Part shown: one piece after another, positions 18,095-23,274 of the stretch
Layout of the letters: every line of letters starts with the position of its first letter
How positions within the stretch are numbered: the stretch's first letter is position 1
Assembly: GCA_020445205.1 (NCBI GenBank)
Contig: JAGRHA010000039.1
Span: 1-32,245, forward strand
DNA length: 32,245 bases
From: Gammaproteobacteria bacterium
GTDB taxonomy: Bacteria; Pseudomonadota; Gammaproteobacteria; Chromatiales; Chromatiaceae
Direction of reading: 5' to 3'
Program-made: the position numbers and the translations under genes
The notes under the pieces: model-generated
Seen by the model: only the letters and a program-made list of their open reading frames with translations
The model's database searches: none
Told to the model about the DNA's origin: nothing

Positions 18095-18181
18095 TGGTGC
18101 CGAAGAGAGGACTTGAACCTCCACCGGGTTTCCCCGACATGGACCTGAACCATGCGCGTCTACCAATTCCGCCACTTCGGC
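18095..18181 (-). tRNA. tRNA-Leu (anticodon CAG)
   Basis: The 87-nt gene folds as a class II tRNA. The acceptor stem is GCCGAAG/CTTCGGC with encoded CCA, and the D-arm holds GGAATTGGTAGAC. The anticodon stem CATGG/CCATG encloses TTCAGGT (anticodon CAG, reads CUG). A long variable arm CGGG-GAAA-CCCG and a T-arm with TTCAAGT complete it. Sequence and length closely follow E. coli tRNA-Leu(CAG). It is a single-gene unit with its own promoter and terminator. Confidence 0.97.
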
Positions 18182-18289: not shown

Positions 18290-20629
18290 GTGTCAAAACG
18301 CAAACCGCGTCGTGCCTCCCGCGACCGCGATCCCTACCAGGCCCGCGAGGCCAAGAAGTACGCGAATCCCATCCCAAGCCGTGAGTTCATCCTCAGTCTG
18401 ATGGAGGAACATGCGGCGCCATTGCGTTTCGAGGACCTGGCCGAAGCGCTCGCACTGCGCGATCCACAGCAGGTTGACGCCCTGTCGCGGCGTCTCAACG
18501 CCATGTCGCGCGATGGCCAGGTGGTGTGCAACCGGCGCGGCGGATACTGCGTCGTCAACCATGAAGACCTGATCCATGGTCGTGTGATCGGTCATCCCGA
18601 CGGCTTCGGCTTTCTGCACCCGGACGAGGGTGGCGACGACCTGTTCCTGAGCCCGCGCGAGATGCGCCGCCTGTGGCACGGTGACCGCATCGTCGCCCGT
18701 GTCGCCGGAATGGATCGCCGCGGGCGGCGCGAGGCCGCCGTGGTCGAGGTGTTGGAACGGGCTTTCGAAAACATCGTCGGGCGCATGCAGATGGAGGCCG
18801 GCGTGGCGTTCGTGCTGCCCGACAACAAGCGCGTGACCCACCAGATCCTGGTCACGCCGGAACGCCTGGGTGGCGCGAAAAGCGGACAGATGGTCGTCGT
18901 GCACATCACCGACCATCCGGAAAGCTGGCGGCAGCCGCTCGGCGAGGTCATCGAGATCCTCGGTGATCACCTTGCGCCGGGCATGGCGACCGACGTCGCG
19001 ATCCGCGCGCACGACATCCCGCTGGACTGGCCCGACGCCGTGGAGCAAGAAATCGCGTCGCTGTCGGCCGAGGTGCCCGAAGATGCCAAGCGTGGCCGCC
19101 AGGACCTGCGCAAGGTGCCGCTGGTGACGATCGACGGCGCCGATGCGCGCGACTTCGACGATGCCGTGTTCTGTGAGCGTACCAAGAAGGGCTGGCGGCT
19201 GCTGGTCTCGATCGCCGACGTATCGTCCTACGTGAACCCCGGAACCGCGTTGGACGAAGAGGCCTACAAGCGCGGCAACTCGGTCTACTTCCCGGACCGC
19301 GTGATCCCCATGCTGCCGGAGATCCTGTCCAATGGCCTGTGCTCGCTGAACCCCAAAGTCGACCGTCTGTGCATGACGGCCGAACTGTATTTCGATGCCT
19401 CGGGCCAGCTGTTCCGTTCGCGCTTCTTCGAGGCCGTGATGAACTCGCATGCGCGCCTGACCTACGACCAGGTCGGTGCGATGCTGCTCGATGGCGATCC
19501 CGAACTGTGCCGGCAGCACGCAAAGCTGTTGCCGCATCTGCACGATCTGTACGGGCTGTTCCAGCTGTTACATAGCGCGCGCGAGGAACGCGGTGCGATC
19601 GATTTCGATACCGTCGAGACGCGTTTCCGCTTCGATGCCGATGGCAAGCTGGCCGGGATCGTGCCGCTGGTCCGCCACGATGCGCACAAGATCATCGAGG
19701 AGTGCATGCTGGCGGCAAACGTTGCCGCGGCGCGCCACCTGTTGCGTAACAAGATGCCTGCGCTCTACCGCATCCACGAAAAACCCAGTGCGGAAAAGCT
19801 CAGCGACCTCGGCGAATTCCTCGCCGAACTCGGTCTGCGACTCGAGGGCGGCACGAGCCCGACGGCCAAGGACTACGCCAACCTGCTCGAGCGGGTCAAA
19901 GAGCGGCCGGACTTTCACGTCATCCAGGTCGTCTTGCTGCGGTCGATGATGCAGGCGGTGTACTCCGACAACAACGTGGGCCACTTCGGTCTCGCGTTCC
20001 CGGCATATACCCACTTCACGTCGCCGATCCGCCGCTATCCCGACCTCATGGTGCATCGTGCGTTGAAGCACCTGCTGACCAGCGAACCGCCGGAGGCGTT
20101 CGAGTACACGCACCAGCACCTGCAGGCCATGGGTGAGCATTGTTCGGCGACCGAACGTCGGGCCGACGACGCGACACGCGATGCCGCCGACACGCTCAAG
20201 TGTGAGTTCATGCTCGACAAGGTCGGCGAGACGTTCGACGGCGTGATTTCAGGTGTCAACAGTTTCGGCATCTTCGTCGAACTCAACGACATCTATGTCT
20301 CGGGCCTGGTACACATCACCGCACTCGACTACGACTATTTCCACTTCGACCCGATCGGGCATCGCCTGCGCGGTGATCGTACGGGGCGCGTGTACCGCCT
20401 CGGCGATACCTTGAAGGTGCGCGTGGCCGCCGTGAACATCGACGATCGCAAAATCGACTTCGTCCTTGCCGACAAGGTCGAGGGGCCCGGTAAAGGTCGG
20501 CAGCGGCCTGCGGGCGAGCCGCGGCGGCGTGACGACAAGGGCAAGAAGGCCGCCCAGAAGAGTGAACGCGGCGATGGCCGCAAGAGCAGCGGCCGATCGT
20601 CGGGTAAGCGTCGACGCCGCGGATCCTGA
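18290..20629 (+). CDS. rnr: Ribonuclease R
   Basis: This 779-residue 3'-5' exoribonuclease degrades structured RNA and takes part in tmRNA quality control. It has an N-terminal basic region, a winged helix (about 30-90), cold-shock domains (about 95-240), the RNB catalytic domain (about 265-600) with IDGADARDFDD giving metal ligands Asp282, Asp288, Asp290 and Asp291, an S1 domain (about 640-725, VGETFDGVISGVNSFGIFVEL), and a Lys/Arg-rich tail typical of RNase R rather than RNase II. The start is GTG, 9 nt after a GAAAGG ribosome-binding sequence. rlmB follows after 3 nt, so the two are cotranscribed. Confidence 0.97.
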   Translation: MSKRKPRRASRDRDPYQAREAKKYANPIPSREFILSLMEEHAAPLRFEDLAEALALRDPQQVDALSRRLNAMSRDGQVVCNRRGGYCVVNHEDLIHGRVIGHPDGFGFLHPDEGGDDLFLSPREMRRLWHGDRIVARVAGMDRRGRREAAVVEVLERAFENIVGRMQMEAGVAFVLPDNKRVTHQILVTPERLGGAKSGQMVVVHITDHPESWRQPLGEVIEILGDHLAPGMATDVAIRAHDIPLDWPDAVEQEIASLSAEVPEDAKRGRQDLRKVPLVTIDGADARDFDDAVFCERTKKGWRLLVSIADVSSYVNPGTALDEEAYKRGNSVYFPDRVIPMLPEILSNGLCSLNPKVDRLCMTAELYFDASGQLFRSRFFEAVMNSHARLTYDQVGAMLLDGDPELCRQHAKLLPHLHDLYGLFQLLHSAREERGAIDFDTVETRFRFDADGKLAGIVPLVRHDAHKIIEECMLAANVAAARHLLRNKMPALYRIHEKPSAEKLSDLGEFLAELGLRLEGGTSPTAKDYANLLERVKERPDFHVIQVVLLRSMMQAVYSDNNVGHFGLAFPAYTHFTSPIRRYPDLMVHRALKHLLTSEPPEAFEYTHQHLQAMGEHCSATERRADDATRDAADTLKCEFMLDKVGETFDGVISGVNSFGIFVELNDIYVSGLVHITALDYDYFHFDPIGHRLRGDRTGRVYRLGDTLKVRVAAVNIDDRKIDFVLADKVEGPGKGRQRPAGEPRRRDDKGKKAAQKSERGDGRKSSGRSSGKRRRRGS

Positions 20630-20632
20630 GAC

Positions 20633-21385
20633 ATGTCGGGACAGATGATCGTCGGCATCCATGCCGTGCGCTCGGCGCTCAAGCACGGCGCGCAACGTAT
20701 CGAACAGGTGTGGTTCGACAAGGCGCGGCGCGATCGCCGTCTGCGTCAGCTGCTCGACGAGGCGCGCGCTGCGGGCGTCGAGCCGACAGCAACCGACAAG
20801 GCCTCGCTCGACCGCATGACGGGCGGCGCAAATCATCAGGGCGTGGTCGCGCATGGCGAGATGCCGACGAGTCTGGGTGAGGCCGCGCTCGACGAACTGC
20901 TCGCGGCACTCGATGTGGCGCCGTTGTTGCTCGTGCTGGACGGTGTCACCGACCCGCACAACCTCGGTGCCTGTCTGCGCAGCGCCGACGGCGCCGGTGT
21001 GCACGCGGTGATCGCGCCACGCGATCGCGCGGGTGGGCTGACACCCGTGGTGTGCAAGGTCGCCAGTGGTGCCGCCGAATCGGTGCCGTTCGTGCAGGTG
21101 ACGAATCTCGCACGCACGCTACGTCACCTGCAGGAGGCGCACCGTGTGTTCGTCGTCGGCACTGACGGCGAAGCGGGGCTCGACCTATTCGAGGCCGATC
21201 TGCGCGGCCCGCTCGCGGTGGTCATGGGTGCCGAGGGCGAGGGCATGCGTCGTCTCACGCGCGACACCTGCGATCAGCTCGTGCGCCTGCCCATGGCCGG
21301 ACAGGTGCAGAGTCTGAACGTGTCGGTGGCGACCGGCGTCTGCCTGTACGAGGCCGTGAGGCAGCGCACCCGGTCGCACGCCTGA
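20633..21385 (+). CDS. rlmB: 23S rRNA (guanosine-2'-O-)-methyltransferase RlmB
   Basis: This 250-residue SPOUT (TrmH-family) enzyme methylates the ribose of G2251 in 23S rRNA using S-adenosylmethionine. An N-terminal substrate-binding domain (IVGIHAVRSALKHG) is followed by the knotted catalytic domain with motif 1 DPHNLGACLRSAD, motif 2 VVMGAEGEGMRRL and motif 3 QSLNVSVATGV. The ATG lies 3 nt after the rnr stop; rnr-rlmB is a conserved gammaproteobacterial pair. In many relatives the next gene is rpsF, but here a two-gene TIR cassette lies between. Confidence 0.96.
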   Translation: MSGQMIVGIHAVRSALKHGAQRIEQVWFDKARRDRRLRQLLDEARAAGVEPTATDKASLDRMTGGANHQGVVAHGEMPTSLGEAALDELLAALDVAPLLLVLDGVTDPHNLGACLRSADGAGVHAVIAPRDRAGGLTPVVCKVASGAAESVPFVQVTNLARTLRHLQEAHRVFVVGTDGEAGLDLFEADLRGPLAVVMGAEGEGMRRLTRDTCDQLVRLPMAGQVQSLNVSVATGVCLYEAVRQRTRSHA

Positions 21386-21505: not shown

Positions 21506-22531
21506 ATGGTAGACGTGGCGTCGGTCGAACCGCATCGCAAGCGAACCTGGGGGCAACGTTTTGTCTACGCGCTGGCGGCGTTGTCGCTCGGGCTTGCGAT
21601 CGGCGTTCTGGTACTCGCGTTGGCTACGTTGATGCCGTTGCGCGATGGTGTACCGTTCGCGCCCACCATGGCGGTCATAGCCGTTGCGGCAGGGGTGATG
21701 GCGTTCTTTTTCTATCGAACAATGATCTCGCGCCGGCGCGGTGCGTGGTTCGCCGGTGGCGCGGCGCTTGCCGCGGTCGCGTTGCTTGTGCTCGGCCTGG
21801 GCATCTTGTCGTCGGGTCTGCTGCTGGAAAATGGTGGAGAGCCCGGCGAAACGGTAGGCAGCCCTGGGCCTGGGCCGGACGTGCCGGCGAAGCAGGACAT
21901 GCCGTCGTTCCCCTGGCCACCACCGCGTGCCTCGGCCATGCAGACCCTGCCCACGCTGTTCCTGCACGACCCGGTGTCGTTGGCCGATGTGGCGCGCACC
22001 CTGCGCATGACCCTGAGTCTCGCCGGTCGGCACGAGCTGCGCTTCTACGCGGTGCCGGACGGATTCGCCATGGTGACGCGTCTGGAGTCCATCGATGCGC
22101 AAGGCAACACGCTGGCCGGCGTCGATCGTCCGACACGGGCGTTCCTGACCTATATCCGCGATCTGTTCTGGGTGCCACCGGGACGCTACCGCATGGTGGT
22201 CTTCGTGGTGACGGATCGCGCGTTCGAGGCATCGGGCGATGCCATCGATCGCAGCGAGGCCGAGGCTTTCATGGCTGGTGGGTTCAACGACCTGCCCGAT
22301 GTCGTCGGTGCCCGCCCGTACGCAGACGGATATCGCACCACGGCCCTGGTCTACGAGTTCCACAAGGATCCACAGGATGAACGGGCGCACGTACTCATCC
22401 CGGGCCGCTTCGATGCCTACCACCACCTGCAGAAAATCGGTTGGTACTCGGCCAGTGCTGAAATCCCCGCCTACGCTGAACTGCCGGTCATCTTCCCCGA
22501 TGCGACGGCGTCTGGCGCACAACGGCGCTGA
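21506..22531 (+). CDS. Membrane protein with exported C-terminal domain, partner of TIR protein
   Basis: The 341-residue protein has a basic N-terminus (EPHRKRTWGQR), three predicted helices (about 19-44, 51-69 and 79-106), a Pro/Gly-rich linker (about 110-143) and a C-terminal domain of about 200 residues. By the positive-inside rule (RTMISRRRG between helices 2 and 3) the C-terminal domain lies outside the cytoplasm. Notable blocks are ELRFYAVPDGFAMVTRLE and LFWVPPGRYRMVVFVVTD, predicted beta-rich. I recognise no family. It ends 8 nt before the TIR gene, so the pair is an operon; it may be the sensor or a regulator of the TIR protein. ATG 21506 is used; GTG 21515 has better ribosome-site spacing. 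Confidence 0.75.
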   Translation: MVDVASVEPHRKRTWGQRFVYALAALSLGLAIGVLVLALATLMPLRDGVPFAPTMAVIAVAAGVMAFFFYRTMISRRRGAWFAGGAALAAVALLVLGLGILSSGLLLENGGEPGETVGSPGPGPDVPAKQDMPSFPWPPPRASAMQTLPTLFLHDPVSLADVARTLRMTLSLAGRHELRFYAVPDGFAMVTRLESIDAQGNTLAGVDRPTRAFLTYIRDLFWVPPGRYRMVVFVVTDRAFEASGDAIDRSEAEAFMAGGFNDLPDVVGARPYADGYRTTALVYEFHKDPQDERAHVLIPGRFDAYHHLQKIGWYSASAEIPAYAELPVIFPDATASGAQRR

Positions 22532-22539
22532 GCGGCACA

Positions 22540-23241
22540 GTGGGTGACGGCATCTTCATCAGCTACCGACGTGCAGATGCGGCCGCGATGGCCGGGCGCA
22601 TCCACGATCGTCTGCGCGCCCGGCTGCCCGGTAGAGATGTGTTCGTCGACGTCGCCGGCATCGTCCCGGGCAAAGACTTCGAACAACGTCTGCAGGAGGC
22701 ACTCTCGCAATCGCGCATCGTGCTCGTGATCGTCGGTGAACGGTGGCTGGAGAAGAGGGCAGGCGCGCTGCGCACGCGCATCTGGGACGCCGACGATTTC
22801 GTTCGATACGAGATCGCCTGGGCCCTGGGTCACGATCTCACGGTGATACCGATCCTCGTCGATGACGCCAAGATGCCAGGGCGGGACGAGGTGCCGGCCG
22901 ACGTCGCGCCGTTCGTGTCGCGGCACGCCGCCGAGGTCCGGAACTCGCGTTTCGACGATGACCTAGACCACCTGTTGCGCGTGATCGAGGGCCGTACTGA
23001 TCCGCAGCGGCAGGCCGGGCGTCGACGCTTCTGGCCCGTGGCCGGCGGCGCGCTCACGGGCCTTGTCGTGTTGCTGCTTGCGCTGATCGCCCATCGCGAG
23101 ATCACCGGCGAACCGATCGCCTCGCAGCTGGGATTGGCGGGTGCCATCGCTCTCGTCCCGATAGCACTGTTCGGTGGCGCGTTCGCGGGCTGGCGCTGGG
23201 CCTCACGACGGCCCGTCGCGGACGTCGGAGAACGCCGCTAA
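22540..23241 (+). CDS. TIR-domain protein with two C-terminal transmembrane helices
   Basis: The 233-residue protein starts with a TIR domain (about 3-150): GIFISYRRAD (strand A), DVFVDVAGIVPGKDFEQRL (BB-loop region), IVLVIVGERWL and DDFVRYEIAWALGHDLTVIPILV. Glu91 in RYEIAWAL aligns with the catalytic glutamate of NAD-cleaving TIRs (HKEIVTAL in SARM1), so NADase or nucleotide-signal activity is plausible. Two helices follow (about 168-187 and 199-222), with a basic cytoplasmic end, which tethers the TIR domain to the inner face of the membrane. The GTG start lies 8 nt after the partner membrane gene. It sits between rlmB and rpsF. The domain call is firm; defence or stress signalling is inference. 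Confidence 0.88.
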   Translation: MGDGIFISYRRADAAAMAGRIHDRLRARLPGRDVFVDVAGIVPGKDFEQRLQEALSQSRIVLVIVGERWLEKRAGALRTRIWDADDFVRYEIAWALGHDLTVIPILVDDAKMPGRDEVPADVAPFVSRHAAEVRNSRFDDDLDHLLRVIEGRTDPQRQAGRRRFWPVAGGALTGLVVLLLALIAHREITGEPIASQLGLAGAIALVPIALFGGAFAGWRWASRRPVADVGERR

Positions 23242-23245
23242 ACGC

Positions 23246-23274
23246 TTGCGTGTCGGGGAAATTTCCCGTAACAT
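23246..23274 (+). promoter_or_regulatory. rpsF: Promoter of the rpsF-rpsR-rplI operon
   Basis: TTGCGT (23246-23251) and TAACAT (23269-23274) are spaced by 17 nt, 86 nt before the rpsF start. The spacer contains a perfect 12-bp palindrome GGGAAATTTCCC (23256-23267). The -35 box starts 5 nt after the TIR stop codon. Confidence 0.65.

Follow-up and report, generated by a model that had tools for sequence, protein, structure and literature searches.

The window, by which we mean the whole 32,245-nucleotide stretch of DNA analysed here, carries two adjacent genes between the housekeeping genes rlmB and rpsF. The first encodes a membrane protein with a C-terminal domain predicted to lie outside, the second a membrane-anchored TIR protein. 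The features on which our argument draws are these:

21506–22531, + strand: gene 1, encoding a membrane protein whose C-terminal domain is predicted to be exported; intact reading frame, ATG start, 341 aa
21569–21823, + strand: three predicted transmembrane helices of gene 1, residues 22–40, 51–69 and 88–106; hydropathy 2.1–2.6, positive-inside charges
21893–22528, + strand: predicted exported domain of gene 1, residues 130–341 (~210 residues); shared by six loci
22540–23241, + strand: gene 2, encoding a TIR protein that has two helices at its C-terminus; intact reading frame, GTG start, 233 aa
22552–22977, + strand: TIR_2 domain (PF13676), residues 5–146 of gene 2; E = 6.7e-16
22810–22812, + strand: GAG codon of Glu91, aligned with the SARM1 catalytic Glu642
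23035–23184, + strand: two C-terminal transmembrane helices of gene 2 predicted by hydropathy, residues 166–184 and 197–215
23246–23274, + strand: likely promoter of the rpsF operon, TTGCGT-17-TAACAT, recognised by eye; downstream limit of the insertion

Both genes lie on the forward strand, 8 nt apart, and the reading frames and spacing given in a first-pass annotation of this DNA were borne out. Upstream are rnr (18290–20629) and rlmB (20633–21385), downstream rpsF, rpsR, a gene for a DUF2232-like protein, rplI and dnaB – names assigned by reading the sequences – while a tRNA gene (18098–18181, − strand; an Rfam match) sits just upstream of rnr. The view that the pair interrupts a conserved gene order is upheld by comparison within the genus: 6 of 8 other genomes have a bare rlmB–rpsF gap of 127–158 nt, and in the remaining two (G002 and G003) the pair occupies that gap. 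The stop codon of the TIR gene ends at 23241 and the −35 hexamer of the likely rpsF promoter begins at 23246, in agreement with the earlier statement that the pair ends 5 nt before this promoter. A consensus promoter scan did not call it; a similar promoter-like block present in the aligned empty sites supports the assignment.

A tree of seven concatenated flanking proteins (FastTree) placed the three carriers – the window, G002 and G003 – in one clade (support 0.975), and a single gain in that clade would thus be the simplest history. The site itself is insertion-prone, since other genomes carry different genes there. At loci L083, L085 and L095 the gap contains a gene for an exported protein, a TIR-CHASE2 protein or a DMT-like transporter, and rpsF retains its promoter and leader region there.

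The proposal that gene 2 encodes a TIR protein anchored by two C-terminal helices stands. The protein scores 59.3 bits against TIR_2 (curated cut-off 28), its two helices follow the domain, and positive charges predict that the TIR domain lies inside; the short loop between the helices, in which H-x-E-x-T-G-E is conserved within the genus, is presumably periplasmic. A sequence search of the PDB with gene 2 returned SARM1 and its worm relative tir-1, and no others. The PDB sequence alignments pair Glu91 with the glutamate of DWVHKEI, numbered 642 in the SARM1 chain of 724 residues; E642A serves as an inactive SARM1 control, and the residue has been termed the known catalytic glutamic acid (PMC11025887). 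Glu91 is, moreover, invariant in all four of the TIR proteins that have the partner, the distant copy in G578 (a genome of another gammaproteobacterial family) included. The suggestion that Glu91 is the NADase glutamate is supported by this alignment, and gene 2 is probably able to cleave NAD. An AlphaFold model of moderate quality (pLDDT 65) has SARM1, PdTIR and SPARTA as its best fold matches in the PDB; these confirm that the domain is a TIR, and nothing further.

Gene 1 is of a different kind. Hydropathy and the pattern of positive charges predict an inside N-terminus, three helices and an outside C-terminal domain, in accord with the topology first suggested (sensor domain out, TIR in), and the three helices are predicted also in both orthologues of the genus. 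The alignment of the exported domain is marked by the motifs FPWPPP, GFAMVTRLE, YRMVVFVVTD and ALVYEF. The domain matched no Pfam or NCBIfam family at or above the cut-off and no sequence in the PDB, gene 1 drew no match from PADLOC, and comparison of the domain with phage families gave chance-level matches only. SLATT was considered for gene 1 and rejected (SLATT_1, 18 bits versus a cut-off of 41). An AlphaFold model of the domain, built from a two-row alignment, had a mean pLDDT of 35 and was left out of the fold searches. The concern that the domain might belong to an already described family thus found nothing to sustain it in Pfam, NCBIfam, PDB or PADLOC, and these searches support the view that it constitutes a family not described in the libraries searched.

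A critical issue is whether the two genes belong together. Searches with the single gene 1 protein reached only the two genus relatives (51–55% identity; 53–56% for gene 2), but profiles and a tblastn search of plasmids extended the reach to G578, G230 and Caballeronia. The profile search with the exported domain uncovered a second, independent pair in G578. Here the domain forms the C-terminal end of an exported protein of 517 aa, and after 5 nt comes a TIR protein of 231 aa, again with two helices at its C-terminus. The setting is unrelated to the rlmB–rpsF site, with a DNA-glycosylase-like gene on one side of the pair and a cytochrome c peroxidase-like gene on the other, and the 5-nt gap recurs in all three relatives (G002, G003 and G578). 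Defined as an exported FPWPPP-type domain followed by a TIR protein with two C-terminal helices, the module is present in the window, G002, G003 and G578.

The TIR domains themselves tell a similar story. When 74 TIR domains were placed in a tree, those of the four pairs fell, with one other sequence, into a single clade (support 0.886), and the G578 member stood apart from the other sampled TIRs of its own genome, which holds about nine TIR matches. The fifth member of the clade is a tandem TIR of G003 that has no exported partner. A TIR gene found mostly without the partner had been named at the outset as grounds for refutation; for this subgroup the outcome favoured the pair, the partner being present in 4/4 paired cases and lacking in the one further TIR of the clade, against some 20 TIR matches in the genome as a whole. 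Both genes are, in addition, under purifying selection: comparison of the genus orthologues gave dN/dS values of 0.24–0.35 for gene 1 and 0.22–0.42 for gene 2, the range of 0.22–0.42 over both genes being rough, as dS is near or above 1. The pair is a true co-inherited unit.

The exported domain is not confined to the TIR pairs. It is rare – found in one of 61 genera of the order, in 2/369 genomes of the class sample and in 2/398 (accepted matches) of the phylum sample, the window's genome being counted in each sample – and in 2/6 loci there is no neighbouring TIR. These two are plasmid p1 of Caballeronia insecticola and G230, where the domain (L110, 5617–6962; L111, 2763–6238) occurs as a lipoprotein in Caballeronia and as the end of a 950-aa protein, repeat-like in appearance, in G230; in both a small helix-rich membrane protein adjoins it in place of the TIR. 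The domain is therefore not exclusive to TIR systems. We set aside further weak profile matches, at E 4e-5 to 1e-3, in G351, G283, G286, G572 and G776; the weak-match loci L107, L108 and L117 lie over unrelated genes, the loci checked being other than those of G286 and G572. Export appears to be achieved by three means: three helices in the window's genus, a signal peptide in G578 and a lipobox in Caballeronia, the last two read by eye. Gene 1 had been described as a three-helix membrane protein with an unrecognised exported domain; the helices and the want of a family match hold good, but G578 has a signal peptide in place of the helices, and so a three-helix anchor does not belong to every form of the module.

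Our favoured interpretation, to which we assign a probability of about 0.55, is that the genes specify a two-gene transmembrane receptor–effector module in which an envelope sensor makes a cytoplasmic TIR oligomerise and cleave NAD. Gene 1 would expose the sensor domain at the outer face of the inner membrane, and the two helices of gene 2 would hold the TIR on the cytoplasmic side. An envelope cue – a ligand, damage to the cell wall or membrane, or phage entry – would alter the exported domain, and this change may pass to the TIRs, causing them to cluster, through physical contact between the two proteins, either helix to helix or via the short periplasmic loop of gene 2. The clustered TIRs would then cleave NAD+ by means of Glu91, and the resulting NAD depletion or ADP-ribose signal would lead to growth arrest or cell death. 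The benefit to the cell would be one of defence or stress response. There is precedent for each half of the scheme: oligomerisation driven by a partner domain activates TIR NADases, SpbK and others among them (PMC12847820), and a membrane sensor is coupled to a cytoplasmic effector in the phage-defence systems Kiwa and Zorya (PMC12904381). Several findings count against the receptor–effector reading: the occurrence of the exported domain elsewhere without a TIR neighbour suggests that, if a sensor, it is not necessarily one dedicated to TIRs; the pair is rare, being present in one of 61 genera of the order; neither site resembles a defence island, to judge from the products of neighbouring genes; and the viral scans gave no copy.

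One narrower form of the receptor–effector reading has phage entry as the cue and NAD depletion as a means of abortive infection. TIR NADases are common phage-defence effectors, as SpbK illustrates (PMC12847820), and a patchy distribution with empty sites, together with a partner that faces the envelope, fits such a role; nevertheless we would wager against this narrow form. The check first suggested, whether homologues occur as neighbours, especially in defence islands, came out in favour in its first part only, by the pairs of G002, G003 and G578: no defence-gene neighbours are visible, and neither the rlmB–rpsF site nor that of G578 resembles a defence island, judged from the products of neighbouring genes and not from a systematic scan. 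PADLOC matches are partial and confined to TIR domains. Inheritance within one genus clade, with no visible spreading, also speaks against the phage reading, as do the viral scans and phages, which held no copy of the pair, and the plasmids, which yielded a lone exported domain and no pair. A phage role is possible; nothing here favours it over a role in stress.

Two further explanations are each unlikely. The tight gap of 5–8 nt, the partner-first order and the strict pairing in four loci recall a toxin–antitoxin system, in which a constitutively toxic membrane TIR would be kept inactive by its partner and released upon the partner's loss. One would expect to find an inhibitor at the cytoplasmic face, however, whereas the conserved domain is predicted to be outside; moreover, the domain also occurs away from any TIR neighbour. 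Alternatively, and with similarly poor prospects, the TIR could lack an enzymatic role and serve as a scaffold, bringing other TIR proteins to an envelope receptor as a signalling adaptor. Such proteins would not be in short supply: TIR_2 has 20 matches in the window's genome (G000; 4.3 Mb, 508 contigs) and 0–18 in the other genomes of the genus, with the highest numbers in the pair-carrying clade, and TIR domains can act via self-association (PMC7075850). Against an adaptor stand a catalytic glutamate invariant in the paired TIRs, that of G578 included, and a nearest solved relative that is an NADase. Finally, although some 20 TIR matches in the genome and an insertion-prone site could bring an unrelated exported protein beside one of many TIR genes by accident, the order, short gap and TIR–two-helix form recur independently at an unrelated site in another family and the paired TIRs share ancestry, so that a chance neighbourhood is very unlikely.

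How the receptor–effector module stands to known systems is instructive. SARM1 is an ARM–SAM–TIR protein gated by NMN/NAD; it and other TIR NADases have their catalytic glutamate in the column of Glu91, whereas in the window pair the TIR has two C-terminal helices for an anchor and an exported protein for a partner. Thoeris (ThsA/ThsB) likewise comprises two genes, one with a TIR, and gives weak, partial ThsB matches (PADLOC, 35.5 bits over 67/396 profile positions, short of full length; NCBIfam ThcB4, 44.9 versus a cut-off of 220). The window partner is exported, though, and is not a ThsA (SIR2–SLOG or macro domain): the genes around gene 2 are rlmB, gene 1 and rpsF, with no ThsA next door. 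Pycsar, CBASS TIR-SAVED and TIR-STING share the use of a TIR as likely NADase effector, but neither protein contains a SAVED, STING or cyclic-nucleotide-binding domain and no cyclase gene adjoins them, rlmB and rpsF being the flanking genes. The initial judgement that the composition differs from that of Thoeris, Pycsar, CBASS and TIR-STING was therefore sound. Kiwa and Zorya resemble the pair in joining a membrane sensor to a cytoplasmic effector (PMC12904381), but their effectors act on DNA; the Kiwa KwaA and KwaB profiles were not matched, gene 1 lacking any PADLOC match and gene 2 matching TIR-bearing models. Eukaryotic Toll-like and IL-1 receptors have an outside sensor and an inside TIR (PMC7075850), a likeness of layout only; they are single chains with LRR or Ig ectodomains, and shared ancestry of the receptor layout is not implied.

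Nearer parallels lie in related genomes. The fused proteins TIR-TM-CHASE2 and TIR-TM-PG_binding_1 follow a like logic, with a TIR inside and an envelope-facing domain outside, but as one chain and with other outside domains; by analogy, the window pair resembles this layout divided between two proteins. TIR effector modules are already known, and we regard the pair as a new variant, its composition not having been found in the libraries or papers searched, the latter being open-licence papers in which we met no description of it. Tentatively, and at a little under even odds, we propose that it represents an undescribed bacterial two-component TIR receptor: an envelope sensor of a new family that would gate a membrane-anchored NADase, with the outside-in arrangement of a Toll receptor divided between two genes. 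Alongside it, the fused TIR-TM-sensor proteins of related bacteria (CHASE2, PG_binding) would make up a wider set.

To our knowledge, what the bacterial TIR immune systems discussed above detect takes place within the cell. If our reading is correct, bacteria would also have a direct link from events at the envelope to cell death or signalling based on NAD, and the fused TIR-CHASE2 and TIR-PG_binding proteins would bear on that link too. Being small and having a conserved catalytic residue, the pair itself lends itself to tests of this link.

Several of the other TIR proteins deserve mention. In G019, from another genus, a 584-aa single-chain TIR-TM-CHASE2-TM protein (L083, 3688–5442, − strand) is encoded, like the pair, within the rlmB–rpsF gap, and its gene adjoins one for an exported protein with a PEP-CTERM-like end. 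The TIR-TM protein of G020 (L019, 1498–2805) has PG_binding_1 in its outside part and apparently faces the cell wall. Several members of the window's genus encode TIR–one-helix proteins (L016, L017, L040 and L041) with an outside stretch of roughly 110 residues; in L017 the TIR is the sole Pfam match, and the outside stretches of L017 and L040, the two that were read, contain the motif AGLWYLPNGSYW.
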